A DNA stretch of 64,000 bases from Astropecten irregularis (taxonomy: Eukaryota > Echinodermata > Asteroidea > Paxillosida > Astropectinidae), in contig OZ020254.1 in assembly GCA_963971285.1 (NCBI GenBank), forward strand, positions 7,502,001 to 7,566,000, in the 5' to 3' direction. The first letter of the stretch is position 1. Each line of letters opens with the position of its first letter. The translations under genes and the position numbers were made by a program. Positions 1,851 through 64,000 of this stretch are shown here, one piece after another. The notes below the pieces were generated by a model, which worked only from the letters and a program-made list of their open reading frames with translations, ran no database searches and was not told the origin of the DNA.

Positions 1851-2122
1851 TGATATAAAGAGCGCCATCTCTTGGCAGCATTGAGAAAGTCATTATTATA
1901 ATATTGGCGTATGACGTTATCATCTTGTTTCCGCCAGCATTATCATACGAGAGAGAAAAAATACGAGAGGTCGATGGCGCGGCGCTGCATCAGTGATGAT
2001 GCATGCAACTAAGCATTAGGGTGTGCGGTGAGTGCGCTGTGTGTGGGAGGATGGTAAAGCTGGCACACACTGTACTGGCGAATAATGAATGACTAAGTAA
2101 TGCACAGTGAACGGCATTCATC
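1850..2122 (+). promoter_or_regulatory. Probable promoter and 5' UTR of the TRIM-NHL gene
   Basis: This stretch immediately precedes the ATG of the intronless TRIM-NHL gene and is locally richer in G+C than the flanking DNA. It contains a GATGGCGCGGCG-like segment near 1972 and a TG-rich stretch near 2020-2050. No TATA box at a convincing distance was found. Promoter status is inferred from position only. Confidence 0.35.
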
Positions 2123-4231
2123 ATGGCAGCATCTCTCTCCCAACTCTCCGTTCTCAGCCAAATAAGCGAGGAATTCCTCCTCTGTCAGGTGTGTTTCGAG
2201 AGATTTAACAAGCCCAAAATCCTACCGTGTCTTCACAGCTTCTGTGAGGGGTGTCTTCAGCGATATGCCCCGGCCGGGAGCCGCACGATACGCTGCCCGA
2301 TGTGCAAGCAGGAGACGGAACTCCCTGAAAATGGCGTGAGCGGACTGAAGGATAATTTCTTCATCCTCAACCTGTCTGACGTGTTTACGGAGATTGTACC
2401 GGCAAAGAAGGGCGCCCGGCCACCGCCACGCAAAGCAATCTGCACCATATGTGTCGGCGTAGACCCAGCGGAGGCCAGTTTCCGATGTCTGGAATGTGTA
2501 GATTTCTTATGCGACGTCTGTGCTCCGTCACACGACCATCGCTTGGCAAGATTCAGCAGGCAGCATCATGTCATATCCGTGCCAGCCTCGGAAAATAAAA
2601 AATTACTGAGGAGGGACATCCTCTGCGAGAAGCACAACTCTGAGACGGTGAGATTCTTCTGCGAGTCCTGCAGCCGACCCATATGCCGAGACTGTGTCCT
2701 GGTGGAGCACAAGGATCACGCTCATACATTCCTGAAGGACGAGGTGTCGAAGCACCGAAACACGATAGACACCCTTCTCCACGGCGTGAGGGATAAGATT
2801 GCTGCTTTTGAAGAAGCCATGAAAAATGTTGATGAGGCCGAGGCCAATCTCGAGGCCAACCGTGGACAGGCTGAGTACATCATTGATAAAACAATGCAGG
2901 ACTACATTGCCCAACTCAGGGTACAACAGCAGCACCTCACACAACAGTTGAGTCGAGCTTGTGAAGGTCGCAAGAAGCAGCTGAACGCCCACAGAAAGAG
3001 TCTCCAGTCTGGACTTGAGAATCTCCTCAGCGGTTTCGACTTCACTGAGAAGGCTTTGGGACACGGGTCAGAGATAGACATCTTGTCGATCAAGGACGAA
3101 GTCATCGACAGACTTCAAGGTCTGTCGAACATTTCACCGCAGCAAGATCTGACCCTGGATCAACTCAGCCAGTTGTACTTTGTCGCCAGTGAGAATGCGA
3201 CCGATCTCTCGTTACCTCTTCTTGGGGAGATCCGTTGTGGAGACAGGAGCTTCGTTGACATGTCCGAACTGGGAGATTCAAGGTCCATATGCTCGATCGA
3301 ATCCTCTGAGCTGGGCGACAGCTCCCTGTCCGAATCCATTCCCAAATCACCCCGCAGGTTCGTGGAGCCCAAACCTGTGGCTGCAAGTAAACCCCAACTT
3401 CTCTTCCACTTGAAGGATGAGACCGACGAAGCAGGTGAGTTTGACTGGCCGAGCGGGGTGGCATCGAGCGTAGACGGGGAGTACGTGGCCGTCGTAGACA
3501 GGGATAACGACCGGGTTCAGGTGTACAACCGAAAGGGGAAGTTTGAATGTAAGTTTGGAAACCGTGGCCGTCAGCCGTGCAAGTTTGAGCTGCCCCTGGA
3601 CGCTGCCATCACCACCGACAACGACCCTTGTATCTACGTCACGGACGAGTACAACCATCGGGTCCAGAAGCTGACGCTGTACGGGAAATACATCTCGCAC
3701 TTTGGAGACAACGGGATCTTCAAGCAGCCCTACGGAGTGGCCATCACCGACAAGGGCCACGTGGTGGTAACTGATATTGGCAAGCATCGTGTGACCATCC
3801 ACGACCCCAATGGCAAGCTCCTGAGTCACTTCGGGTCCAGGGGAGACGGCGATCAGCAGTTCAACGAGCCTCGCTACGTGGCCGTCCACAACGACAAGAT
3901 AGTGGTGTCGGATCATTGCAACCATTGCATCAAGATCTTCAACACTCAGGGCACCCATCTACACACCTTCGGGTCCTGTGGCTCGGGCAACGGGCAGTTT
4001 ATCGGCCCCACCGGGGTCTGTGTCGATCGAGACGGCAACATCGTAGTGGCCGACTGCGCTGACCGCGTCCAGCTCTTCAACCCGGAAGGCGTGTTCCTCC
4101 GACACCTGCTGAACGAAGGAGATGGTCTGAGTGGTCCACTCGGCATGGTCATTACGGCCACGGGAGAATTGGTCATCACTAATCTAGGTACACACTGTGT
4201 CAATGTTTTCAAGTACAATGGCTGGGTATGA
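2123..4231 (+). CDS. TRIM-NHL family RING E3 ubiquitin ligase (TRIM2/3/brat-like), intronless
   Basis: A single 702-residue frame with the tripartite motif plus NHL order. The RING finger (about residues 21-61) shows C21, C24, C36, H38, C41, C44, C58 and C61. B-box 1 follows at about 107-150 (CTIC ... CLEC ... CDVC) and B-box 2 at about 168-205 (CEKH ... CESC ... CRDC ... H). A coiled coil covers about 210-320. A Ser/Glu-rich linker (about 375-415) leads into six NHL repeats (about 425-700) forming a predicted beta propeller, with recurrent V-x-D-x-x-N-H-R-V-Q motifs. I see no filamin domain between the coiled coil and the propeller, unlike TRIM2/3/71. Family members ubiquitinate substrates and several bind RNA through the propeller. 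The first ATG (TCATCATGG context) is chosen because it gives a normal spacing to the RING. The lack of introns fits a retrogene or a lineage-expanded TRIM. The exact orthologue is not assigned. Confidence 0.93.
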   Translation: MAASLSQLSVLSQISEEFLLCQVCFERFNKPKILPCLHSFCEGCLQRYAPAGSRTIRCPMCKQETELPENGVSGLKDNFFILNLSDVFTEIVPAKKGARPPPRKAICTICVGVDPAEASFRCLECVDFLCDVCAPSHDHRLARFSRQHHVISVPASENKKLLRRDILCEKHNSETVRFFCESCSRPICRDCVLVEHKDHAHTFLKDEVSKHRNTIDTLLHGVRDKIAAFEEAMKNVDEAEANLEANRGQAEYIIDKTMQDYIAQLRVQQQHLTQQLSRACEGRKKQLNAHRKSLQSGLENLLSGFDFTEKALGHGSEIDILSIKDEVIDRLQGLSNISPQQDLTLDQLSQLYFVASENATDLSLPLLGEIRCGDRSFVDMSELGDSRSICSIESSELGDSSLSESIPKSPRRFVEPKPVAASKPQLLFHLKDETDEAGEFDWPSGVASSVDGEYVAVVDRDNDRVQVYNRKGKFECKFGNRGRQPCKFELPLDAAITTDNDPCIYVTDEYNHRVQKLTLYGKYISHFGDNGIFKQPYGVAITDKGHVVVTDIGKHRVTIHDPNGKLLSHFGSRGDGDQQFNEPRYVAVHNDKIVVSDHCNHCIKIFNTQGTHLHTFGSCGSGNGQFIGPTGVCVDRDGNIVVADCADRVQLFNPEGVFLRHLLNEGDGLSGPLGMVITATGELVITNLGTHCVNVFKYNGWV

Positions 4232-22271: not shown

Positions 22272-25200
22272 CTAAGCATCAGGTGAACTATTAGGCCCTG
22301 TACTCTCATCCTTCGTTTCATTATGAAATGAGTCATTGTCAGATGCCACATTTCTTTGTTCCCCGTTGGTGACAACTTCGTCTTTGCTTGCACCATCATC
22401 TATTACATTGACATGCACATCACGGACATGGTTTGAATTGATGTCCAGTTCAGGAGTGTTGGATGTCTTGGCTGCAGCAACACCATCTCCATCTGTGCCG
22501 GTTGTAAGCTCAGGCTGCTCTGTTTGAGACGGACTGGCAACCCCTTCCTCGTCTTCTGCTTCCCCAGGAGTATCAGGAAGCATCCCGTCTGGAGACTCTT
22601 GCTGCTGGAGGTTGCGTATCTCCTCTTCAACACTCTCGGTGATTGTTTCCAGTTTCAGAGCAGCATCTTTAGCTCCTGCCTGTTCCTCTGGCGTCACCAT
22701 CTCCTCATCTCCTTCTGGAGTCACATAGTCCCTGTACTCCTTCACAGAGCAGGATCCTTCGTAGAGCTCGATCAGCTTCTCAAGTTTCTCGACCGGACTC
22801 CGACCCCTGGAAGAAGTGGCACCAGGTGTTTTTGATGTAACCACTGGGCTCAGTAACGACCCCCGATCCTGTCCTGCCGATGGTGTCCTGGGAAGAGCAA
22901 TGTCAGGAGTCTGCTTTGAAGGAGAGTACTCTTCATCGTCCGCTTCAGAGTCAATGAAGACGCTGGGAGTAGGGATGCTTCTCTGGCTCTGCTTTGTGGA
23001 GATTGAGGAGCGAGCCAGGGTATTTTTGTACGCCATAGCCTGAACGAAAAAATAAACGAACCCCAATATTGAATAGTCAAAATGAAATATCCTTGCAAAC
23101 ACTCTCTGAGGCTTTGCATAGTGACAATTGGTATGTGGATCGGTTTGCGGAATCACCATGTAATAATCGTTCGTACTTTCACACATATCGTTCGCACTTC
23201 TCACAATTAAGGTCTCAATGTTTCAACTAGTCTGCTCTAGTCCTCATCAGGGGAGACTACTCTCTGTACGCATTGGACATCTTTAACCTGTACCAGCTGT
23301 TATCTATTTAAAGCAACAATTATCCTCAGGTTTGACAAGAAAAAACGAAATAGCATCTTGAGTGTCTCAAACTGTTTGAATTTGAAAGCTCTTTCATAGA
23401 TGTCATCATAAAGCTGGCAATAGCTCAAGAAGCTATGTGATCTTACCTTGACATCCACTCCCCTCGGTGACTCTTTGAAATGTCGCTCTCGCTGCTCATT
23501 GAGGCTCTCCTGCATCTCATTCTCGGTGATCTTGGCCGCGATGTTGTATCGTGTACACAGTCTCCGCACCTCATCCTTGATCTGTTGAACCATCTCCATG
23601 TCTCCTGTGGGGCTAACCCCCATGGACTGCAGGGCAATGGCCAGCTGCCTGTAGGTCAAGGAATACTTGAGCTTAGAGATGGAATACATCACCTACTGTA
23701 TATTATACCGTCATTCAGTGCAACATTGCCATTCCCCTGATTTGCACATTTTGGGCACAAAACCAGATTCTGCTGGTGCCAAACTGTTGTGTGTCACAGT
23801 ATGTTGTCAGTTTCAGAATGCATGTCCAAAGGCAGTGGTTGGGATACGATATCATTGTTGATTGTTACGATGTAAATTGTTTTTTTGATGTATGGACAAA
23901 TATGAAGATTGATAATGCAAAATATGTAGAAAATTTTCATATTGTGAAATACAAAGCTATTGAAATGACATGCAAATATATTCTCACTAAAAAGTTATAA
24001 ACCAAACCAAGTAGATACAAATCTCTTAACATGAAAAGGGTGAAATATTATCAGTAAATAAAATCATTTAAAAAGAAAACTTCAAACAAAATTGACATAC
24101 ATTCGAACAAGTTGATCTGGTTCAACAAGCAGTTTATCCTGCAGCATTGGAGCGATGTGTTTGCCGCCTATACCCAGCTTGACCAATGTTTGTAGGGCCT
24201 CGGCACGCACCCCAGGCTCTGATTCAAACCGCACTGCCCACAGAATGGCCTCCTCGATAGGCTCACTGTTCCTGCCTATGTCTCCAATAGCTGTGATTCG
24301 ATCGGGCAAAACAACATAGACATGACACTGGATTAAACATCAGCTGGCACAACGAAATGGGTAAAAAGTTCGACTACTTCAAAATTCGCACAGTATTGTC
24401 ACTGAAATAAGCTGGTGAGGAGGGCTAGGTTTAATCAAGATCATTTATATTAATAATATAAATGATCTTGATTATTAGGGTTTGAAGTTTTCCAAACCAA
24501 TACTTGCTCCAAATCAAATGATGTGGCAACTGTGTTTTTTAACCAGGGAATAAAATTGTAAGAAAATACACTCATAAACAAATCAAGCATTGGACCAGAT
24601 GTTATTCAGATCCAACTTTATAATCATGTTTATGCAGGAACCTCACAAAGGCTAAGGCTATATTAAAATAACCTGACTAGGTCTTGAAAATATATAAGGG
24701 TCAATGGAAAACAGCCGCATACCAGGTATGCAAGCCACAGTCAGGCTTTGAAGGCATGACCTGACTAGGCTAACTCATCCAGTATTTATAATATAAAGGT
24801 AGCATCATACTTTGGTAAGAAACCAAAATAGAAATGTTCATAGATTTACCTATAACTCACAGGGTATAAAGATGGACTCTATGGACATACCGTTAAAATT
24901 GTTCCGCTTATTAAAAATGCTGTATTTATCCAGAAATGAAAAAAACAAAAGACTGAAAAAAGTTTTGATCTCCGAGATCAAATCTTTAAATTATGTTACA
25001 ATTTGGCGTGACAGTTGCAATGTTTTTTTTTTGCTGTTTTCTACAGTTTCCAATTATCAAATGAGCAGAAGATTTCAGAGGTTTGTTTTTATTTCAAGAC
25101 AAATCAAATTATGAACTGACCACAGCTGTTCTATCAACTTTAATATCAAAGTATGGTTCTACCTCTCTACTTGAGGACAAAGAGATTTATATAGGAAAAT

Positions 25201-28200
25201 TAAGCCACCTTTGATTGCGTGAGCTTTGACTTTCCAGTTGTTATCAAACTGCGTCAAGAACAGCAGATTCTTGGTGACTTTGGGGTCTTGTAGAGACAGG
25301 AGGCTGGCAGTGTTGGTTGCAGCGATGCGCACGGCGATATATGCATCAGTGAAGCACTGTAGGTATGCTGGTAAGAGCCTGGCAGTCATGATGCCTGTAT
25401 TCAAAATGAAACAAAGTAAGATTATGCAGTTCTTGCACATAACATACTGCATTGAAATAATCTGGTACCCTAATGCTTTTCTAAACCATGAACCATGGTT
25501 CTCTGATGAAATAATGTAATAGCTTGTCCACAACCATAGACTTTTCTTTATTTATAAACATAGACTCGTGGTTACCATTAGCGGCCAAATACTGCAGATC
25601 ATTTCGTCTCCTCGAAAGACGGCATAACCAAATTCAACATTTTTGTTGACTTTCCAATTTCCATAGCTGTTCAAAACACATACCATCATTGCTTATGTTG
25701 TTTCAACTACATTCAGCAATATCTTTTTATAATGTTTATGAATCATTATGTACAAATTGTGTTCAAATTTGATGGCTCGCCATAGTTTCTGCCATCTTGG
25801 TTGGCAAAAACTTGGGCTTTGACTTAGCAAAAGAAAGGTCTATACAGAAAAAATAGTTGCAAAGTCTTGAGTATTAATGTGCAAAGGACAAAATGTATCA
25901 TTTGATAGTGCTTTAGACAAAGATGAAAAAATATTGAATTTAGGGCTGTGCATTCTACCCGGGTACTCGAAACCCGACCATAACCATCGAGTACCCGGCT
26001 CCATTTTTTCGATTCTATTACCCGTAAAAAATAACAACCATGCCTTTTTTCATAAAATACATCACTGACCTGCAAAATTGGTACTTTTTTGCAATGTCAA
26101 AAGCAGATTATTTACCGGAAATCTGTACTGAAGCCGGCAGCGAGCCACATATCGACGCAGTCCGGCCGCGATCTACGGTACCGGACAACGCGACGCACCC
26201 CGGCTGCGATGTAGGCCAACATGTACCGACCAAAAATCCTACCGATCATCGGAACCGACCGAGCCTACACCATGCACACACACAGTACGTACGGTGTATG
26301 TAGTCTTCATGCCCACACGTGGTCGAAACTGGTGCACGTTGTTTTGACATCGTGACTATTACGCGTGGCCGTGTGTGGGGCGGATACCAGTCATGGAATA
26401 TTCGAGATTACCATGCTGACCATGTGCACAATGCATCGTGTTTATGTCTTAATAATGCGTTGGTCCCCCTAGGAATTTTTCTCACGTTATTTCTTAAGAT
26501 CTAGCACATGTGTCGTACGTGAAAAGTGTGTTTCATCTAATTGGCCAACTGGACAAAATTACCGACAGAAATTCAAGTAAGATTTAGCTGATCAGGAAAA
26601 TGCGATTTACGGGGTGGTCAGAATATGACGGGGATCACGCAACGGAATAACAACCCTGACAATGCATACATCGTGTTTGATGTCGGCGGTGCTCGATGTC
26701 GGAAAAAAGATCGCGCTAAGTTTTGCTTGGCCTGTCATGTCGGTAGAAATAGCGTAAACTAAAATAGCCGAAAAATAGCCGAAATCTGCTAAAGGTCGGG
26801 GTGTTTTGGGGAGGGTCTGGTAATTGTTTAGCCTGGCTTGGAGCCCCGATACGGTACTCACCAACGGCCATTACGCAACATACTTCCGGGTTCTTAATTT
26901 CTTATGTTTTATATTATATCGCGGATACCCGGGTACCCGCCCGTTTGGGCAAAGGGTACTCGGGTCCAAAATTACCCGTGAATGCACAGCCCTAATTGAA
27001 TTATGAGAGTTTACCAAGGTGAGCTATCTTGTTCAGTGCATCTATGCGGTCTCGTTCATTTCCCTCTAGAAGGCGATCACGGAGGTCATCGTGTACCTCC
27101 TTGCCATGTCCTGTCCTGCCCATGGTCTGAGCAGCAGCTTTCCTGACCTCATGGTGCCAGTCAGTCCACATCAAGCTGCTCAGCTTATGGGTGATATCCT
27201 TCATGGTCCAAGAAAGCAAAAGACGGCAGGTTAATAATAATATACAAATGTCTTGCTGGTGCTGTCTATTTCACCTGCTTCATCCTTGATAAGTTGATAT
27301 ACTGTGCATGGGACTGAACCACAAATATACTTTCTCTTATCATTTTGAAGAGAAATCTCCTTAAATCCTACAAAAAATCCAACATTCATAAGCACAAACT
27401 TTTTGTCACTTGTGACATGGAATGAGTTGAGCCAACAAATATAATTCTGTTGCTTGGGCTCGGCAGTCAAGGGGGTCGATTTCACAAAGCTCCGCGACAC
27501 ATCATAACTTGAGTTGCAAAGGTTATAACACGTTGCTATCTTATGATTGGCCAGTCTGTCTTTTTAATGGATCAACAAAAATATCATTTCTAAAGGGCAG
27601 TTAATAAGATCGATAATTCTTACCAAATTAATTTAAAAAAAAAAAGTTTTTGAAAAGTTGAATGTGCTAGAGCTATTCAAAGCAAAGTGAGAGCAAAATG
27701 CAGGCAACAGTTGTAACGATGCAAAACCTGACTCGTCTTCAAATAAGGCAAGCCGTATATCAAACGCATCGCGACGTATTTGGAGAAATGGGTTTCACGA
27801 CGCATCATACCTGAAACGCATCACAGAGATGCGATATGTCTTACAACTGTCACGTATCATATTAAAAGTTAGTCAAATTTAAAGAAATTGGCCCAGGTCC
27901 ATCAGAGACTGCCGTCCTTGGACAGATTTGAGATGGGTTTATGGCTTCCCACGAAAATACTTGTTCCCTTACCTTGTTAATGTTCCCATTCAGGCGTGGT
28001 AGCACCCTGCATGCAATGATACGATGGCGCCAACTAGTACTGTTTAACTGCTCCCCGACCATGGAGTGGACGATAGTAGAGTTGCTACTCAGCTTGGCCA
28101 TTAAGCTGATGCAGCGCTCGTTCTTGATCATATCCCCGCTGCCGAGGAGTTGCTGGATCAGTTCCCCGACTACGTAGGAGTCGCAGACGCCAGCATGGGC

Positions 28201-37472: not shown

Positions 37473-40400
37473 TCAGTTGCTGGAGTTTGACGAATACCGC
37501 CCTCTGTTGGTGGGTGGGTTTGGTGGCACAAAGTCCTTGTACAAATGCTGAAAGATATGGTTGTCCATGATCTCATCTGTATCGGGTCTCTTGGCCGGAC
37601 TGCAGGACAGCAGCATCTTTATGAGTTCCGTCTGTTAAGAAATCCATAGCAATGAAGTAATACTTGATCAACTTTTGACCTCCAGGCAAAAATGCCTGAA
37701 AACTGAAAATGTATGAAAGCACAGAATTTGAGTGAAAATTTGCAAATTGCAAAACATCTGGGGCCAATTTTATGGAGCTGCTAAGCACAAAAATTTGCTA
37801 GCTCACAAAATGTCTTGCCCAATAAAACAAACTACCGTTAAAAATTTCATTTGATATTCATGGTCAGTGAACAGCCAAAGAAAAATCACAAGCGATTCAC
37901 AACATACGGAAATTTGGTTGCTCACCCTGTTTTTATTAAGACAAAAATGCCATGCTTAGCAAATAGTTGCGCTAAGCAGTGCAGCGAAACTGGCCCCTGA
38001 AAATTTCGGAAGTAAATTATGCCTACCTCTGTTGGCAGTTCCTTGGAAAACCGATCAGGGAATTTCTGCTGTCGAGACCCAGTCATCACCTGTGAAAGTA
38101 AAGGTTGCAATTATTATCCACTTTGAATCAATCTGAAATTCATACCAAGGTGATGAAGGAGTTCTAACGCTTTAAATGCTGGACACACAGTAAAGGAGGA
38201 TTTTGCAATAAATCTTTTCGTCGATGACAACGATACTTCCCAGACAACCAGAGGTCTCAACTTGACCTTCCAGTGCAGTCAGCTCGGTTCATCTTCAGGC
38301 AATTCTGAGAAGATTCAAGTACCCTGCAGCTTTGTGACATTGCCCCTACTATCCCTAAGCTGCATCCCGACATACCACGAACCGTCCCAAAGATGTTATA
38401 CCTACCATGATGCGTTCCATCTGGGTACTGAAGGGATGCAGTAGTTCAAAGAAGATCAAACCGAGAGAGAAGATATCCACTTTGTGGTCGTAACTCTTTC
38501 CACTCAGCTGTAATTAGACATCAATAAATATCAAATGGACTGATTAATCAGACTTAATAGTCAACACATTTAATAAGGACAATGGTACTGACACACGTGT
38601 TGCGGGGTTACCCGCCATATGCCGCCATCTTCCCAAGAAAACGGAAAAAAAAACATGAAGATTCACCCAGCCCTGTCAACCTCGGGATAATCTCCCTGCT
38701 ATTATCTAATGTATCCACTGCATGTGCCTAAGCCACCAATCACAAGCATGCTGTCTTCGGACTGAACGGGGCATATACCAATCAAGGACAAAAACCCAAC
38801 ACAGCCAAAACCAAGCACACAATTGAGACCGTGCAAGTGCCTTCATCAGCTTGATAAATTCTAGCAATCTGCACCCAAAACATCGCTAACTTTCAGCCAA
38901 CATCGTGAGCCATCGAACACTTTTTTCTTCTTACCATTTTCCATGATGAACAACATCTTTTCTATAAATAAATATACTTTCCACAAATTTCCTTCTGAAC
39001 AAGCAACATAATCTTACTGTATACTCAAATCCCTGCACCAAACCCCGCCCAAAAGACCCAAAACAAGAAACAAAGAAAATTACATATAAACCTGGAAAAG
39101 ATGGAATTTGTTACACTGTACCTGCTCAGGGCTCATATAGAGCTGGGTACCAACTTGACCAGTGTGCTTCTTGCTCAGATCAATACTGCTCAGGTCATCA
39201 TCCAGGGTCTCCCCCGTCTCGAGCTGGGTGTCCACTGCCGTTACCAGGCCAAAATCACCCACCTTGACCGTCCCGTCAACCGAGAAGAATATGTTCGATG
39301 GCTGTCATGAATAAATTTGCAAACAGTTGAAAATGTATATTTCTGAGTGTATGGTCTTACTAACACAACCAATAAAGGTTTTTTATTGGCAAATTTCTGT
39401 GTGTTAGTTCACATGAGAGTTTGGGTATCAAACTTCTGGACTAAAACAATACTGTTCCTTCTGATCCTCCATCAAGGCTGAATTACATCACAAGGGCAGT
39501 TTAGTTCTTTTTTATTTCATCACAAAATCACTGAACCATTCAGTCATCCCCTATAAAATGATTAAAATAAGAACTGTGTGCAATGATATAAATTACCTTG
39601 AGGTCTCTGTGGATCATTCCACATGAATGAACGTACTGCACAGCTGCAATGATCTGCTGGAATATGTGAAGGAGCTTGACACGATCTCGGCTCAATGGGT
39701 TGGCCCCCAGCCAATCTTTTAACGTCTCCTTCTGACACAGCTGCATTTGTATGTACAGGTACACCCTGGGGATAGTGTGGCAGGTATGGGCGTCGCCTGA
39801 CGCCGCCCTATCCCTCAAGCACCTGTCCGAGACTTCAATTTTTGAGAGCTCATGGCCGAGGTCTGAGGTGGAGCTCTGGTGATCAGAATGATCAATGTCA
39901 AGGCCATTACGGCCCATTTTGGCGACGCTGTGTTCTGAATTGTCTTCAAAAACAACCTGCAATGAGTTTGTGTTTTGATTAAGACATGAGGTGGACTCCT
40001 GACTTTCAAGATGATTCTCGTCCTTGTTCTGACCAGAGGAAGCAGGTTTTGCAGCTGTACTGTAGTCTGAAGCATCACTCTCAAAAACCACCTGGAAGGA
40101 GTCAGTGTTCTCATCTTCAGGAACTTCCCTGCTTGGTGCTAGACTTGGTGACCTTCCGAAGGTAATGTTTAACGGGCAATTCACTGGTGTGGGTAAATCA
40201 GAACCGCTGCTCATCCCGAGGTTGAAAGTTGCAAATTCATCCGCTTTGGGCGTCAAATTAAACTCGGTGTCATCTTCCTCAACACTGTCATTGCGGAACT
40301 CAATGCTGAATGAGCCGCTCTCTTCCTGGAGGTTGGAGAGGTACCCAGGAATCTGGTCGTCAAAATCATCCGGAATGTGGCTCTTGGAATCCGGGACTGG

Positions 40401-43400
40401 ACCCGTTGTTTGTGGGACATGAAGGTGGCAGCTGGTCTGGCTGAAAAACTGCTCCTTGTCACGGACTAGAAGACTGTCTTTGTTGAAATTGGCAGTGGTG
40501 GAATGTGAAAGTGGCACGTTGCTCACATTTGTGCTGTAAGGATATCGATAATTTCTAATCAATTCCAAGTCCTTGGAATATGAACTAAATTGCCACAGCT
40601 CATTCTGTATATCAAGTTATCTATCTTTCAAAATCGAAAGATTAGATACCTCCCCAAAAAACATTAAGTACTTTGACACAGTGAATGTCCATTTTTGGCA
40701 AAACAAAACCTTTGATTCAACAAGATCTAATAAGTTATTGACAACAACCACACTCCTGTGTTCTGGGCATCCCTGGACCATTCATTAAACTTTCTCAGCT
40801 CCCTCTCATTAAACATCAGGGTTTAAGAGAAGCAAATGATGGCAAAAAGCCTTCTTCAGGGACACATGTGTCAGTCATGGAACTGATGTTGCTCACACAT
40901 TAATCTCCATGCAACCAACAAACACTACAAGAGCTGATAAGATGAAATGTAATCATCAAATAACCACAAGGGAAACTAACTGGATTTAAAGTCAAGATGA
41001 CATGTATTTGAATTATCCTGAATAGGCTTATGACAGGCAAGGGTTTGTTGGACTGACCTATCCCCAAGTAGAAGTTCATCTCGAGTCTTCTGCCAACCAG
41101 CTGGAGGTTCCTCCAGCCAGGAGTTGAAGTACCGCACGATGCCGCTGTGATCCAATCTAGCGAGGGCCCGGGCCTCTCGCAGGACTTTCTCTCGTGCCTT
41201 GGCTCTGCAAACCAACATTAGGAAAATCAACTTCAAATGGCTGTAATGTGTACATCTTGTGGGCATATGCATGTAATATCCTGTCTTCTGCTGAAGACTG
41301 AGTCAAGTCAGCTGTCAACCTATGGCTAGGTTGGCACATTGTCTGGTATGATGCATAGGCTGTATGTAGAGGTGCCCTTCTTAACAGCTGTAGCTGCAGA
41401 CACTTTGTTTAGATCCCTGTCCAAACCAGACCTTACACAAACTTGTCTATTAGCGGTGTTAAAAATTAAAGGTTACATCATACTTTGGTTTGTGTCAAAG
41501 AAAACAGACTCATGAGCAAAAATATCAAGGAAGATGCAGTAACAGTCATCTGTGAAAATTTCAGTCCCATACGGTGCTTACTTTTTGAGAAAACAGTCAA
41601 AAACAGCCACAGTATTTCTTAGGTCTTTTGTCTTTTATTTTTGGTCTTTGAATGAACAAAAATAAGTTTGGTCACTGGTTTTACTCTTGCCAGAATAAAT
41701 AAAGCATTTCATGCAGAAACATTTTAATGGTATGTTTCCACCATCACCATATTTATATCTTGTAAGTTATAAGTAAATCTGTGAAGATTCCTGTTTCGGT
41801 ATGCAACCAAAGTATGATACTACCTTTAATGTGATCAGCATTTGTAAAATATGATGAGGAATTGAAGTACAATTGTTGTGTACTTACCTGTTGGGTAGGC
41901 ATATCCGTTTGACTGCATACCTGTTCTCGTCAATCACATTCTTGGCCTCAAACACGATGCCGAACCCTCCCTTACCAAGACACTTCTGGTGCTCAAAATC
42001 AGTCAAATACCTGATGATAAAACATCAAATAATATCCCAAATATCACACCAAAATTCAGTTTGCACAAATCTATGAAAGTACTGTGTTGAAGACAGATTT
42101 TAAATGATTGTTTTATGTGTAGTTAATATCTTCTTTTGAATGTAAAACATTCTGACACCACATTGTGTCAATTGTAACTACACCAATACTAGTACTACTA
42201 TCCTGTACAATCCTTCCATATCCCATGATTGATTTTGACAGAATTTGATGATGTCTCTTACCTTGACTTGTAGTGCTTTGGCTGGTTCTCTGCACCACTG
42301 GTATCCTCTGCAAGGGACTCCAGCATGCTGACTGATCCTGTGACACTCAGGCTGTTGATCCTTTCCAGTGTGGTACCCGGCCTCAGCATGTGACATAAGA
42401 ACTGCATACCCAGGGCCAGTAACAGACTTATGGCGAGGATTTCCTTCCTGCAACCACATAATAAAGATTGAAGATTTTGAGATGAGAATTATCAGGAGAA
42501 AGTTACGAACGAATATCATCACATAATCAGCAATTTTAAGATGGACTTTGTTCTGTCGATTTGTATACAATCACACACTGTTGATGTATTCCATTGTTTG
42601 GACGTGTTCTTTAATATACATACAGCGGAACATCACTATTGCGAACACCGCTATACCAAACATCATCCTTGGCTCCCAATTGTTTTGTATAGGCATGCTG
42701 ACCATTGTTCAATATAACGAACAACCACTATAACGAACAATTTCTGTCCATTCCAGAAAGTTCATTACAGCGGTGTTCCACTGTAGTGACCTCCAGTTTT
42801 GGAATGACCTGGGGCCGATTTCACTAACGCTTTGCGATCATTGCTAAAGCCCAAATCCATCACTAAACGGAAAATCGCTCGATACTTTGAGTAGCAATTT
42901 TCCGTTTAGCGATGGATTTCGGCTTCAGCGATGATCAGGAAGCATTAGGGAAATCGGTCTCTTGTGCCTTTATGTCAATCTCATCCATAGTGAACAATGT
43001 ATTGGCATTGACCTTCTCTAATGTAACTACACAAAAGCTTGTCCCAAATCATATAATATAGCTAACTAAGCCTTTGTCTGGACACAGGGTTCTAGATATT
43101 GTCAATATTAAAGACCAAATGAACTACTAACCACCAGAATGTAGCCGAGACAGACAGCAGTATCTCCAGGCCATCACTCTCAGTGGACGGCCCACTCTCG
43201 TTGGAGTCGATGTACACCGTCTTCTTCTTGGTCCCAAAGACCTGATACTCAGCAGGACTCGGCTGCATCACGTAATACCCCATGTCTGATCAACACAAAC
43301 CACACCAAAGGACTTCATCAATTCATCATTGAAGCACATTCCTCTCCAATGGACCAGATCAATGCTATGAACTATCACAATCACAACTAGGTCTTGACAT

Positions 43401-46400
43401 AAACTTGGAGCATTTTGTAACAAATTGAGCATTTTTGCATAATTTGAACATTCTGGTTCCTTCACTGATAATTTTTTTTTTTGCACAAGCAGAAATAAAA
43501 ATTTAAAAACCAGAAATGAATATATGTTAGAAAATGTATGAGTATATCAAATATGTTCGTACAATTTCAGACTGTTCAAATTCATCAAATAACCTTAAAA
43601 TCCAAATTTATCCTTAAAATCTCTAAATTGACTATTGGCGTCACCACCAAAATAGGCCTGGATGGCTCAGTTGGTAGAGCGCCATACGGTATTCAGGAGA
43701 TTGCCGGTTCAAATCCCGCTCCAATCAATTTTTCTTTGTTCACTTTTCAATGACTTCTAGTCCGAATTTTAGAAAAAAACACACATAGCACATTGGTATG
43801 CCATAAAAAATTAGAGGAACCCAAATCAGTGATTCTTACCAAATGGGTACTGAGAAAAAACAGTAAGGGCACTGCTATCAACAGCCCACTGCTTCTTCAC
43901 GCTCTGATCGTTAGCCACGATGGGCGTCCTAGAGGGCGCTGTTGACATGTAGGGTTGCCACTGCACCCTGGGAACGGCAAAGGGTGAAGGGTTGCCCTTT
44001 GACCTTGCAGCTGCCGCTGTGATGTCGCTGACGCTCATCTGCACTTCTTTGGATGGGTGCACATAAGCCTGCTTGTTGTATTCACCTAAAAACCAACCCC
44101 AGACATAAAATAAGTTATGGAAATTAGGAACTCGTATTGATTCAACTGGTCGTTCTTTTTTAAATTACAACTTTTCAGTGCCTATAGTTCTGAATGTGTC
44201 AATGACAAAATGTACATGTTTGAGGTTATAACTTATACCATGAAGATGCTTCTTACCCATGTACAGGACAGGATGTAGAGGGATATTTGGGCCGGCTTTG
44301 CCATCAGCACCAATAAGAGCAATGTTCTTGACATCAAAGAGATCAATTTGCTTCAGCGTTCCTTCCCTGATGACCCAGGCATTTGCGATGGCTGTAGAAA
44401 ACTGTCCAATACAAATCAGAAAAAACTTGATGTAATGTATAGCTAATATGGCTGTAAAAACTCACAAAGATTATCAGGTGTTTTTTGGCTTTATGTCGTG
44501 GAGACAAATAAAGAACCATGTACAAAAATCCTGAGATGGCACTGACAGAAGTGGAGATATTAAATATTTAATGCCCCCTAGTTCTTTCAAGAAAAACCCC
44601 TCTATCTTCCCCCAAAAAATATTCAGGTGTTACATTATAAAACCTTATAACACAATGATTTCAGAATACTTTGCGACAATTGTCAAATCACTGCATCAGT
44701 TATTATCAGTACTTGGTTGTTATAAGTGAACTTGGCTCTATTTCACCGTATCCTCATTTGCATATTGATATACAATTATCAGCAAATAGGTTATTATTTA
44801 TGCCAACCTCTTGTTTCCATAGCAATTTTGAGGGGTCACTTTGGCTGTAGGCCAGCACAGTGCCAGGTGAGATGAAGACTTTCAAGGCAGGATGGATCAG
44901 ATCCCTCATTGCTCTCTGTTCCTCTTCAGACTCCTCCACGCACACGGTTGCCTGGTGATAGTCATCATCATAATCCTCATCGTTAGAGTGGCCGTCTCCA
45001 TCGTCATGGGAACCAGGCAGGTAGGAAACTTCATGCTGGCCGACACTAAAATTCCACCTTCGTGAAAAAAGGGAAGTTTTTTCTTTAAGATAAGTAAAAT
45101 TCTTGGGTAAAGGATTTAAGTACATGAGTAGCTCTTGTTTTCTGCAAGCTTTTGTTTAAAATATCTTAATAGACTACCGTATTTTCATCCAAAGTCTAGA
45201 GTCAATACTATCATATTTTCCTGTAAATGTTAGGTTATTTCTGCTTTCCCTGTAAGTATGGATTAACACTATCTCATAGATGTATGAGATGAAAATGCAG
45301 CATTGAACTGCACATGACACCTTATTTAAATTCTTTAAGATATTGCTGGAAGGGGCGTTCATACTGACTTTTCTGCTCCTGTGCGCTGCTCGACTGCTCT
45401 GACCGTTCGCTGTACTCGCTCTATCACGATGACATCGTCCTTATCTGTACTCTCGTTCTCTTCAAACATCTGGCACCCGTTAACACCGCAGATATAGAGG
45501 ATCTGTGTCGTTAAAGAACAAGTGAGCACAGTAGACTATAAATCTTGACCTCTGACCTACTGTGTCATAGGTCATTATGGTTCTGTTCCACACCAAAAGG
45601 ACAGAAAGACGTGGTCCTAGGAAATTTGCCCATTGGGCCAAAAAAACTAAATATTTGAGATTAAAAACAAATCCCCTTGGGATCAATTGGCTTAAAGACT
45701 GCTCAAATATCATGCCCCAGAGATTTTGCAGTATTCTGGGCAAATTCAGTAGTCACGGCATTCTTTCCTCCCACATAAAAAAGGTGGTAGTGTAGGGATA
45801 TGTATTAATTAAGAGTTGATCTGCTTATTATAATTGAAATTAAAAACCCTGACTTCACAAGGAGCAGACCCAAGTCTCGCAAGAATTTACTTTACATTAG
45901 ATTTACGTACTGTAGATAAGTTCCCCACCATGTTTGAAGGAACGGAACTTTGGGTTGACTTAGGATTCAGCTCTTGTTTCGGGTCATTTTTGCAAAGTTG
46001 GAAGATAAAATCCTATAAACCACCTACCTGTCCCGTGCCTACGTTGATGCCATACGTACTGGTCTCACGGCCACCTACAATCACTGCATCATCGCTGAGT
46101 TTGAAAGAGGAGCTCAGTAGCGTGTCGGCTGTCAGGGGAACAGGTTCAACGCTCTGCCCATCCCAGCGGAACAAGCCACCGTCTAGAGAGGGGATGACTT
46201 TGTAACGCCCGTCAGGTCCCATGATCTGAAAAAAAAAAAAAAAATGACGATTTGATTTAAATGCATGTTCATTTCAGGCCTGGGCCCTGGCCCACATACA
46301 ACAGGTTACGTACATCAATATGAAGAATATCAGCTAAAATGGCATGTGATGTATTATAACCCCCCCCCCCCCCTATTCTATGAAGCATGATTCCCAAATT

Positions 46401-53900: not shown

Positions 53901-56727
53901 TGCGTTGTTGCTAGGACGTTGCTATGGTGGGCGTGGCCTACTGGATCGGTGTATTGCTTCAACCCAACAAAACCCAGCCAAGCTTTTTTAAAAGCAGCGA
54001 TGCCATGCCACCGGTCATCTCTGAAACTCCACTGAGACTACATGTACCTTTGATGTTCTCAAGAAGCATATGAAGCACAGTGAAGAACCCAGAGAGCTGC
54101 TGGGTGGTGAAGCCCTTCTCTTTGGCCCACCAGAACCCGCTGACGTAGTAGTCCAGTAAGACCGACTCCGACAGATCAATCTGGGAGGATGTCAACTGCA
54201 GAATCTCGGCCAGTTTCCTGGTTGCACATAGAGAAAAATGAGGACCAAAGAATGTTGAATATTGAACAAATTCTATTTTCATTTGAAAAGCATTGAAAAC
54301 TTTGCATGGATCTTGTCTATCTAGCTTTCAAACAAACAAAATTATGGTTTTGCAAAATGGAGATCAGTACGTCACTTTAATAAACAAATGAATCAAACAT
54401 ATTGACACAATTGGCCTTATGTTGATAAACAGCTTACTTTTCCACATCTTCTACGGATAACTCCTGCAGAGCTCTAGTTTGGGCATTGGAGAGAACCTTC
54501 CAGGCTAATGATGCTTCTTTCTCTAAGGCCTTGGCTTCATCATCCTATATTTAAATTGTGACAGACAAACTAACATTACAATTTATATTTAAACAGAACA
54601 TTTTTAATAAATTATAGCTTAAGGAAAAGCATTATTTTCTCTGGTGACCGGAACCCTAAAATTTGCCTTTTTTGAAAACATTGTAAATTTAACTTAGATT
54701 TTTTCTGTGTACAAAATGTCTAACTAAAGACACTGGGGCGCTGAACTTCCTTTCATAATTTTGGGGTTGACAGTCGGTCTAGCACCCCAGAGAATCCCAT
54801 AGTCTTAAATGTGTTGTACAAGGACAAAAATTGTACTTCACGGTAGGCCTACTTGCGCCCAAAAAATGTCCCCAAATGACATCAAAGTCAAAGTCAAAGA
54901 CATCACAGATCGGTTTGAAAATCGCTACATCTCTTCTCCCAAATGTAAAGGATGAAATGCAGCTTATTTGTTTGTGCTCACGATCTTTCCGTGCACGTGG
55001 ATAAAAATCAACAGGTCTGGGATTTTTCCAAATTACGGTGAAATACACACAGGGAATTGTACAGTTCTGGATTTAATTTAGTCATGCCTTGAACTGAAGA
55101 CTGTACACAGGTAGGCCTAACGTTACATGCTGTAACGTTAGTGTAGGGCTGTGCATGAATGGCGACCAGAGAGAGACAGATTTTAAAAGAGAGCCATCTA
55201 CAGCCTGTGGCTATGTGTGGGGCTAGGCCAACGAGAAGAATGCATGACGATGCCGGCAAAATATAACAGTTAACGGTGTTAGGCCGAACAAGTAGGCCTA
55301 ACTGTTTAGGCTTAGTTACAGTTTCCTAAGGCAAGCGGTGCTAAGTTTGGTAACAGGTCAACTCGTACCTTCGCCAACTTGTACCTTGATCAACTCGTAC
55401 CTTCCCAACCGCAAGGTTATGTCAACTCGTACCTTCGCCAACTCGTACCTTTGCCAACTCGTACCTTCGGTTAAGACAACTCATACCTTTGCACCAAGTC
55501 AACTCGTACCTTCGATTTATATAATGCATGGAGGAATAAACTCATGCAACTCGTGCTCAAAGCAGCATTGATGGGCAAAATGTTTCGTTTTATTCTATCC
55601 AAAATTACCATTTACTATTTAGAAACTGGTTACAAAAATAAAATTGATTCAAATGCATGTAAGCCATGTACGTATATACCGGCCCTAATACAGTGCAGTC
55701 TACTACAGTGTAATAAAAAGAGATGTCTCAAGATGAAACAGCAAAAGCAACTTGAAAAGGCATGCAGGAAGGAAAGATAAAAACGATCTCCATTTAGAAA
55801 AATATTCCATGATGAAATGAATTATATTGAAAACATACCCCGCCCAAGCGGCTCAATAGTAAAAATTACGAAAGGTTCTTTCTGTGTATTGCTTTTAAAG
55901 TATAATAAATACGATTTTTTAAAGAGCGGAATTCAGCACTAATTTGTCAACTTCTTCTGCGATATCGCACACAATGTTGTCGTATAATAAAGTTGATTAT
56001 AGATTATCAAAATGTTTGATCATAATGACGGAAAACATTGTATAAACATATCATTAAATGAAAACATTCGTTGAAGCATGGACTACAGGACTAGCCGACT
56101 GATGAATGATCGGACATGACTTTATTGTGTGTCGGCCGCGTCAGCGGCCTCCACGAACGCCCTACTGACCAGCCATCACAATGCACGCTGGTTGCACAGT
56201 CAGAAAAGTGTGGCAAAATTAGTCACGGTACTTAAAAGCTAAACGATGTCTCGACCTCTACAACAAAAATGTAATGGTATTTCAACCATATTCTAAACCA
56301 ACAACAGAAAAAAACGGACACATTTTGTGTCTAAATTCCGAAAGTACGAGTTGTCTTAACTCAAGGTAGGCCTACGAGTTGGCAAAGGTACGAGTTGGCG
56401 AAGGTACGAGTTGGTGAAGGTACGACTTCACGAAGGTACGAGTTGGCGAAGGTACGAGTTGGCAAAGGTACGAGTTGACTCGAAAGCCTAAGTTTGATTG
56501 CGCGACGGTCACGATCGAGAAAACAAATTTCATAAACATAAAATCAAAATGCACGTTATGCAACCAAAATCCAAATGAATACCTAACTAACAAATCAGGA
56601 ATAATCACAATCTTACGCTTAACGTCTTCCAGTCAATATCTTTGTATGCCTCTGACCCTTTACCGGTGATTTGTATGGTTATTTGGGAGGATTTTCCTTT
56701 CCCCTTCTTCGTCGACGAGGACGCCAT
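50946..56727 (-). CDS. CFAP119: CFAP119/C1a-32-like axonemal protein (CLAMP domain)
   Basis: Eight reverse-strand exons join in phase: 56727-56617, 54544-54438, 54217-54048, 53072-52928, 52756-52684, 52294-52102, 51568-51456 and 51029-50946. They give 331 residues with all introns GT-AG. A conserved block at about 74-190 contains LLDYYVSGFWWAKEKGFT and LHMLLENIK, which I recognise as the flagellar C1a-32/CLAMP family (human CFAP119, formerly CCDC189; Chlamydomonas FAP119). Members sit in the C1a projection of the central pair and affect ciliary or sperm motility. The C-terminal part is Pro/Glu-rich (about 215-275) and ends in a short helix. The ATG at 56727 follows a GCAACAAA context. Its first exon is short and separated from the rest by a 2-kb intron that holds a foldback element. 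A second possible 5' end is described separately. Confidence 0.82.
51215..51290 (+). repeat. SINE 3' fragment (CFAP119 intron)
   Basis: CAGTATTCAGGAGGTCGCCG-GTTCGAATCC (B box) runs into a TCAATTTTTCTTTGTTCCCTT tail-like stretch followed by AATGACTT. This matches the second half of the SINE at 43605-43755; the A-box half is missing. Confidence 0.7.
51819..52066. mobile_element. Inverted-repeat element of the GGGGCCAATTTCA family, copy 3
   Basis: AGGGCCAACGTCATGGAGCT-GTTAAGCAC at the left and GTGCTAAGCAGGGCTGTGAA-AGTTGCCCC at the right. The interior matches 37761-37998 (CATTTGATATTCATGGTCA, ACAATCACAAGTGAT). Confidence 0.7.
54755..55060. repeat. Dispersed repeat shared with 33470-34540
   Basis: GACAGTCGGTCTAGCACCCC resembles GACGGTCGGTCTAGCCCCCA near 34508. 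ATGAAATGCAGCTTATTTGT ... GTGCTCACGATC resembles 33548-33590. The element class is unknown. Confidence 0.45.
55341..56496. mobile_element. Foldback-type transposon with tandem-repeat arms (MULE-like)
   Basis: The left arm (55359-55514) is about eight copies of a 16-bp unit CAACTCGTACCTTCGC. The right arm (56344-56479) is about eight copies of its reverse complement. About 830 bp lie between them, without a recognisable gene. The outer flanks 55341-55349 and 56488-56496 both read CTAAGTTTG, a 9-bp direct repeat that fits a target-site duplication. Arms of tandem repeats are the hallmark of foldback elements, and a 9-bp duplication is usual for Mutator-like elements. It lies in the first intron of the CFAP119 model, and the internal part is non-autonomous. 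Confidence 0.75.
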
Positions 56728-61064: not shown

Positions 61065-63568
61065 TCAACAAAGGCTGAGCACTTTTTTAACCATCTCGCC
61101 AATTCCGTCGAAAATCTCGTGGAGCTTTGTCTCACACATGAAGGCAGGTGTGGTCACGATCTTGTTGGTGGTATCCACATGGATCTCGTAGGAAAATCAT
61201 TAAGGATTGTACGTGAAAAAGTGGTGTTTTAAAACTCATTTAGAAAATTAAATTCACTGTTTCCTCCCACATTTCATCATTACACTTCAAGGCCTCACGT
61301 CTACAAAGGAGTTGCAGACCATGATGGCGGACAGAAAGAGATGATAGTGCGTCACTCAAAATGCTCAGGTGTTCCACCCGCCATATAAACTACCTAACTA
61401 AACTAACTCCCCAACTAATACAAGTAATACATTGCTGAAAACTGCTAAATATATCAAATGCTTGTAGTTAGGAGGGCCTGGTGCATTTTGATACTAACAG
61501 GATCTTTCTTAAGGCTAAATGACAAGGTACAAGAACAAGCAAGTGAAAGAAACACATATGAATGGATGAGAGTGTGGGGGGGGTGGAGGGATGGGGTAGG
61601 TAAGATTGGTCAGACAAAGAGGGGTCAGATAGGCAAGATCAAAGGTACCAATGACTACAAAAGGGTGGGAAAGAACAGGGCTGGGGAAATAGGGATTAAC
61701 AAAGGAGGTAATTAGAGGAATAGAGATCAGGTGAAGAAGAGGAGTACAAAAAGTAGGAGCAACTATGCAACTCCCCAACTAAGTTAAACTTCAAAGGATA
61801 TAGTGACATTCTTGTTGATGTGCGTACTTCCCATCTGTCCAATAGCTCCAGCTGTTCCAGCATACGGCCACTTCCCTCCATCATCCTTGTCTTGGCCAAC
61901 AGTCACCTCACAGCCAGGGATGACTTTGGCAGCCAGCGTCGGTGCGATACAGCACAGTCTGAAATATGACGGATCAATCTATTCTTAATGTGGATACAGC
62001 ACTGCTGGCAGTCTGTTTAGAAAAGAATCAATTATCCAGCCTGAAAGCTGTGTTGATCAGTGTCAGTTCTTCAGACTACAATGTATGTTATTATTGGAAT
62101 GTTGTTGGTGGAGGCAAAGCCTAGTTTCACAGAGGGTAGGAGTATCTTGCATCAGTAGTACACTCTCCTATAAAAGCATAACTGCTGTCCTGGATAGGGA
62201 GGGTTCTAATGGTCTGTGTTGGAGTCATTAGGAGGCTTATCAGATGGTACTAGGTTCAGTTTGTCCTGAGGGAGGTAAGTTACCCTCTAACAGAAAACAC
62301 AAACAAACAGTCAGGTGTATAAGTTGGTGACAATGCAATATATGCCTCAACAAGCTGAGCAACAATTAGACAGAACAAATAGGTATATGTTGTCTCAACA
62401 GTCTGAGTAATACAATCTGAATGTAATCAAGATGGCACACCAAGGCACCAAGCCCCCAAAAGTTAAGCTACCAGAGCGACAGACAGCCAGACAGCTAGAC
62501 AGTGCATCCTCAGAGCAGTCTTCTCACCCGATGGGTTTCTTGGCCTGATGAAACTCTCGCAAGACTCTTTCCACATCAGGATTCACGGTGCAGTTTGGCC
62601 CATCGGTAGCCACGCTTGAGCTACAAACATACCAACAAAACATCATCATCAACAGACTGTCAATAATGTAATACATGGTGCTGATCTGTGTTTTCAAATT
62701 ACAAAATAAGCCATGGCAAATTAAGAGTTAAGGACGGTCACTTTGAATAGATAAAAAAGGCCAAGCTGAAATCTTGGAGGAAAATTAATGATGAGACAAT
62801 GAAAAACACACAGCTTTGTATGCACGGCTCATAAGATGGGCCAATAAGGTTTGGGGTGTGCCTATCTTGTTTAGCATTTTTAAATTTGTCATCCTCAATT
62901 TATTTTCAATATAGCAATGTGGTGATGTTTCTTTGTAAAGGCTCTACACATGTTTTAAATGAGTAAGGAGAAAATACTTGCCAAAAAAAGCTTGCCATGC
63001 CCAAACTATTCCCAGAGCTATAGTCACTACACTTTTTGAGTTCCAATGAGAAACAAACCATGATTTTAGTTCCCATTCCAACCTGAGCAAGCTGGAAAAA
63101 TCATTCTCTAAAACACCCAAAAGCACAGTGGAGCAAAGATGATTTAAGACTCATTAAAATATCTACCGGTAATCGGACTCACAGGTTCTTAGCAGCCCCA
63201 AAGCCTCCCGGGAAGACGACCGCATCGAGGTTGGAGACATCCAGGGCACTGAGAGGAGATATCTTGCCCCGAGCAATGCGGGCTGACTCCACCAACACAT
63301 TCCTGTCAAAATGGGTCAAACAACAGAATATGCTGTCAACTATAAATGTTTCTCAATCATCGATAGAATAGCTTTCAAATGACGATGTGAAATTTCCACT
63401 TGGAATTTCACTACAAAACAAATTCCAGATATTTCCAGAGGGACTTATATTGACCTTTTCTCTCCTTCAGTTGGCTGACCCTTACTGTGGTCAATCACGT
63501 GCATCTGGTTAACATCGGGTGCAAAGATGGACACGTCCGCCTGGCCACGACTCAGGTGTACGAGGACT
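61065..63568 (-). CDS. GATD3: ES1/GATD3 glutamine amidotransferase-like protein (3' five exons, partial)
   Basis: Five reverse-strand exons: 63568-63455, 63302-63183, 62620-62528, 61958-61802 and 61187-61065, ending in TGA. They give about 201 codons; the 5' end (presequence and first strand) is beyond the window. The sequence follows the DJ-1/PfpI-like ES1 fold: [72 protein letters not shown] and [12 protein letters not shown]. The Cys pair of LCCIAP lies where the nucleophile elbow of the superfamily is found. Vertebrate GATD3 (ES1, C21orf33) is mitochondrial and bacterial relatives (ElbB) have been given glyoxalase or deglycase activity; the activity here is unproven. The last intron has AT-AC ends and is annotated separately. 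Conventional GT-AG splicing at that junction would lose conserved residues. Confidence 0.92.
61188..61801 (-). other. U12-type AT-AC intron of GATD3
   Basis: Reading on the reverse strand, the intron starts ATATCCTTT (61801-61793), the U12 donor consensus, and ends CCTAC (AC at 61189-61188). A TCCTTAAT branch site sits at 61206-61199, about 12 nt before the acceptor. Excising it joins NVT to EIHVD in phase 0, matching the expected ES1 sequence. There is no typical polypyrimidine tract. Confidence 0.88.
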
Positions 63569-63660: not shown

Positions 63661-64000
63661 AATAATGGCCCTAGATATTGCCATAGCTGTCCTGGTTCTT
63701 GCCTTAGCTGCGAAAGATACTGCCATAGCTGCCCTGGTTCTTGCCATAGCTGCCCTGGTTCTTGCCATAGCTGCCCTGGTTCTTGCCATAGCTGCCCTGG
63801 TTCTTGCCATAGCTGCCCTGGTTCTTGCCATAGCTGCCCTAGATATTGCCATAGCTACACTACATATTGCCATAGCTGCCCTAGATATTGCCATAGCTGC
63901 CCTAGATATTGCCATAGCTGCCCTAGATATTGCCATAGCTACCCTAGATATTGCCATAGCTGCCCTAGATATTGCCATAGCTGCCCTAGATATTGCCATA
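63661..64000. repeat. 21-bp minisatellite (GATD3 upstream intron)
   Basis: About 16 tandem copies of a 21-bp unit, TTGCCATAGCTGCCCTAGAT plus A, with a second variant block containing CCTGGTTCTTGCCATAGCTG at about 63735-63835. Because 21 is a multiple of three, one reverse frame stays open as repeated MAISRAA/MARTRAA, which I take to be an artefact. The array continues past the window end. Confidence 0.9.

Follow-up and report, generated by a model that had tools for sequence, protein, structure and literature searches.

A very probable U12-type AT-AC intron in the ES1/GATD3 gene of Astropecten irregularis

Introduction

Minor introns carry U12-type splice signals, scored here against the donor consensus RTATCCTT and the branch-site consensus TCCTTRAY, and a missing polypyrimidine tract is a usual trait of the class. 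A printed form of the consensus reads ATATCC and CCTTAAC (PMC3033335), and the optimum distance from the branch site to the 3' end is given as 11-13 nt (PMC3584512). Introns with AT-AC ends account for about 26% of human minor introns in one survey (PMC10639083), and for about 24% of those in mouse and 22% of those in human in another (PMC6717393).

The stretch of DNA analyzed here, called the window throughout, comprises 64,000 nucleotides of the Astropecten irregularis genome (contig OZ020254.1, positions 7,502,001 to 7,566,000). Its minus strand holds, from 63568 down to 61065, the five 3'-terminal exons of an ES1/GATD3 gene. The ES1/GATD3 protein is mitochondrial in mammals, and we take the gene to be kin to mammalian GATD3A (C21orf33), an assumption drawn from the shared ElbB family and from general knowledge. 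In mouse, Gatd3a has an exon 7, and a genotyping primer pair extends from this exon to the 3' UTR (PMC8935817).

Results

The five GATD3 exons in the window are all on the minus strand: exon 3 (63455..63568), exon 4 (63183..63302), exon 5 (62528..62620), exon 6 (61802..61958, with the last residues ...KNVT) and exon 7 (61065..61187), which encodes 40 residues (EIHVD...LSLC) and the stop. Exons 1 and 2 lie directly upstream, beyond the window edge; the start codon, at 65549 on the window scale, and exon 2, from 64794 on the same scale, were read from the adjoining locus L041, also on the minus strand. The spliced 201-residue part passed the cut-off of the NCBIfam ElbB equivalog NF008747 (230.1 bits against 180), the match covering positions 26-216 of the 218 in the profile. 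A 200-aa version without one Ser served as query against the PDB, where four distinct sequences of the ElbB family matched, the top two being 1oy1 (E = 1.4e-40) and 1vhq (E = 1.5e-40). The Pfam DJ-1_PfpI match stayed under its cut-off (21.8 bits against 26.6); the identity of the gene rests on NCBIfam and PDB. On this homology, the gene is confirmed as ES1/GATD3, a homologue of bacterial ElbB, and the name proposed in the initial annotation is retained. A 151-base stretch from exon 6 has a single match across the genome (475.7 Mb, 168 contigs).

A minisatellite with a 21-nt unit occupies 63668-64000, within the intron separating exons 2 and 3, with approximately 16 copies inside the window; it runs on in L041 to about 64470 on the window scale, and several of its frames are open.

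Intron 6 spans 61188..61801 on the minus strand (614 nt, phase 0), the exact coordinates at which an AT-AC intron had been proposed. Its 5' splice site, ATATCCTTT (61793..61801), agrees with RTATCCTT at all of its first 8 bases (8/8), and its putative branch-site element, TCCTTAAT (61199..61206), agrees with TCCTTRAY at 8/8. The second branch-site A lies 12 nt from the intron end, formed by the AC 3' splice site at 61188..61189, and the full set of U12 signals that had been claimed is therefore present. With a slash marking each border, the donor flank reads ACT/ATATCCTTTG and the acceptor end TCCTTAATGATTTTCCTAC/GAG; joining would bring the exon 6 end ...AATGTCACT to the exon 7 start GAGATCCAT, with the protein reading NVT/EIHVD. 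Compared with the printed CCTTAAC, the branch site CCTTAAT of intron 6 matches at 6/7, the last base differing (PMC3033335), and the 12 nt fall within the 11-13 nt optimum (PMC3584512). The AT-AC termini are set by the protein junction and are among the ends allowed for U12-type introns (AT-AC or GT-AG). Absence of a polypyrimidine tract is not evident in intron 6: pyrimidines make up 72% of the 18 nt that precede the AC within the intron, against 67% for each of the three neighboring introns.

The remaining five GATD3 introns start with GT and end with AG, as measured computationally for three and read by eye from the sequence for introns 1 and 2. The three that lie wholly in the window have U12 donor scores of 3, 2 and 2 of 8, and their best branch-site-like strings score 6, 5 and 6 of 8. 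These three measured introns are in phase 2, against phase 0 for the AT-AC intron.

Protein evidence for the junction was drawn from bacterial relatives, of which 39 loci were found; L038 and L039 were too short, leaving 37 usable proteins. All 37 align gap-free over the 5 residues that precede the NVT/EIHVD junction and the 8 that follow it, and one of them, L007, has VTEIH spanning the junction position. Candidate introns with GT-AG, GC-AG, AT-AC, GT-AC or AT-AG ends were enumerated, with donors from 20 nt inside exon 6 onward, a length of at least 40 nt and a 17-residue exon 7 core retained, which gave 56 products. The AT-AC product 61801/61188 had the top profile score among the 56 (254.0 bits), followed by a GT-AC product at 246.2 bits, while the best GT-AG product reached 245.7. 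Five products were also scored for the corrected protein. The AT-AC product reached 260.9 bits and the AT-AG product 252.8; the two GT-AG products followed with 252.6 and 250.0, and a protein truncated at exon 6 had 208.4. When both intron ends are shifted in step, over a range of 24 nt in each direction, GT-AG, GC-AG or AT-AC ends occur at zero shift only. The in-phase joining of conserved sequence noted in the initial annotation is borne out by the gap-free relatives and the ranking. The AT-AC product leads its closest competitors by only about 8 bits, and it is thus the gap-free alignment and the splice signals that jointly carry the argument.

Rarity of the motifs was considered as proof and dropped. 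The octamer ATATCCTT occurs in 6 copies on both strands of the window, against a shuffle mean of 2.97, with at least 6 in 16 of 200 shuffles. Donor/branch-site pairs at most 5 kb apart on both strands number 5, against 1.81 expected per window from the shuffles, with at least 5 in 21 of 200. The pair is only mildly commoner than in shuffled sequence, so that the motifs alone are weak evidence. Two of the 5 pairs are intron 6 itself, with its AC end and with its AG end; the plus-strand pairs are 27194-27302, 23087-23590 and 23087 combined with 27302. Three-frame translation of the flanks of 27194-27302 and 23087-23590, judged by eye, gave no recognizable conserved coding, and the AT-AC motif pair 27194-27302 (109 nt overall) is probably due to chance. 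For a single junction, 500 shuffles put the chance of the donor octamer at 2.2e-5 and that of the composite of branch site plus AC at 1.4e-5. Both on one protein-defined junction would then occur with a probability of 2.2e-5 x 1.4e-5, or approximately 3e-10, a figure that assumes independent ends and motifs fixed beforehand.

Several other features were seen in the window. A long single open frame at 2114-4228 (plus strand) combines RING, B-box and NHL repeats and is of TRIM-NHL type. On the minus strand, an open frame at 39543-40616 carries a partial protein-kinase domain, possibly EIF2AK-type, which is our guess from sequence, and an open frame at 53962-54327 matches Pfam CLAMP (flagellar C1a complex subunit C1a-32). 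A tRNA-like element is present at 43656-43727 (plus strand; Rfam RF00005, 34.6 bits), and two oppositely oriented arrays of a similar 16-nt unit, at 55357-55469 and 56373-56477, are separated by about 1 kb.

Discussion

The last intron of this seven-exon animal ES1/GATD3 gene is, judging from its sequence, almost certainly U12-type and of the AT-AC subtype. What is established for intron 6 comprises the presence and spacing of the splice signals in the sequence and the continuity of the protein; from these we infer that the NVT/EIHVD junction is used in vivo and that the intron is removed by the minor spliceosome. Following established minor-spliceosome knowledge, U11 and then U6atac would pair with ATATCCTT, and U12 would pair with TCCTTAAT with a branch-site A bulging out. 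The AC located 12 nt downstream would then be joined to give ...NVT/EIHVD.... Phase 0 is a minority phase for minor introns, averaging 22% (PMC10639083), which counts against the U12 reading.

The alternative that survives best would keep the U12 donor and add a second acceptor. An AG ending at 61185 lies in frame, 3 nt past the AC (61185-61187), so that an AT-AG product minus one Glu is conceivable as a minor isoform, with a profile score of 252.8 against 260.9; the initial annotation makes no mention of this AG. Its use would stretch the branch-site distance to 15 nt, beyond the 11-13 nt range, and AT-AG combinations are described as disfavored (PMC3584512); dual use of the acceptors is accordingly considered quite unlikely.

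A GT-AG intron removed by the major spliceosome, with GT at 61807 or 61789 and AG ending at 61185, would retain the frame and most of exon 7, but its products do not respect the alignment. Both had been described in the initial annotation as deleting conserved residues, which holds for 61807/61185 (VTE lost) and not for 61789/61185, where ISF is inserted; all 37 relatives are gap-free there. Measured against the U2 donor consensus MAG/GTRAGT, the two GT donors score 6/9 and 3/9, while the three neighboring introns score 7/9 each. The products also fall 8-11 bits below AT-AC in profile score, and a complete U12 donor and branch site would be left without explanation, all of which makes a GT-AG intron highly improbable. 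Splicing of the AT-AC intron by the major spliceosome has precedent in the U2-type AT-AC subclass (PMC3584512, PMC6717393), yet it deserves hardly any credence for an intron that matches the U12 consensus in full at both donor and branch site, with optimal spacing, and whose donor scores only 3/9 to the U2 consensus.

The preferred U12-type reading has a consequence for annotation. Because retention of intron 6 adds ISFEV and then a stop, a gene finder restricted to GT-AG would alter or drop the GATD3 C-terminus here, a portion previously counted as the last 41 codons, which comes to 40 residues plus the stop.

Eukaryotic GATD3A is described as nested among bacterial homologues, and alphaproteobacteria are said to lack such homologues (PMC8935817). 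The latter statement is not borne out here, since 3 of the 37 relatives are alphaproteobacterial (L002, Magnetospirillum, and, judged by record title, L011 and L015), with 47-52% identity, and the 52% of L002 is the highest identity of all 37. In a tree of 38 rows, the window protein and L001, which comes from a Phycisphaerales MAG, group together (support 99/98), and the three alphaproteobacterial rows are placed away from it. These rows comprise the window protein as sole eukaryote and 37 bacterial relatives picked by pattern, so the tree settles nothing.

For the pairing of L001 (match 1001-1585) with 63568-61065 of the window, transfer in either direction or a mis-binned contig is possible.

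Eukaryotes may have acquired the GATD3 gene from bacteria that were not the ancestor of mitochondria. Very little evidence for minor-intron gain was seen in a pan-eukaryotic survey (PMC10639083). Gain of the U12-type AT-AC intron inside a transferred bacterial gene, with the transfer following the mitochondrion, is considered unlikely; the top identity of Magnetospirillum and the tree pairing with Phycisphaerales pull in opposite directions. If true, such a gain in a bacterium-derived gene would be a bounded case, limiting when minor introns could still arise.

Lists of minor-intron genes are usually placed in supplementary tables, so that a negative result for GATD3 in the literature is no evidence of its absence from print. 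Among the titles and abstract openings listed, no report presents GATD3/C21orf33 as a minor-intron gene, and the main text of PMC6717393 contains 0 occurrences of C21orf33.

The protein belongs to the same family as bacterial ElbB, with kinship to mammalian GATD3A assumed as above, and the gene described here has seven exons. Intron 6 shares with U12-type AT-AC introns the donor and branch-site sequences, the distance from branch site to intron end and the terminal dinucleotides; it differs in being in phase 0, the less common phase, and it is known here from sequence. AT-AC minor introns are an old and already known class, of which intron 6 would be a convincing but ordinary new example.
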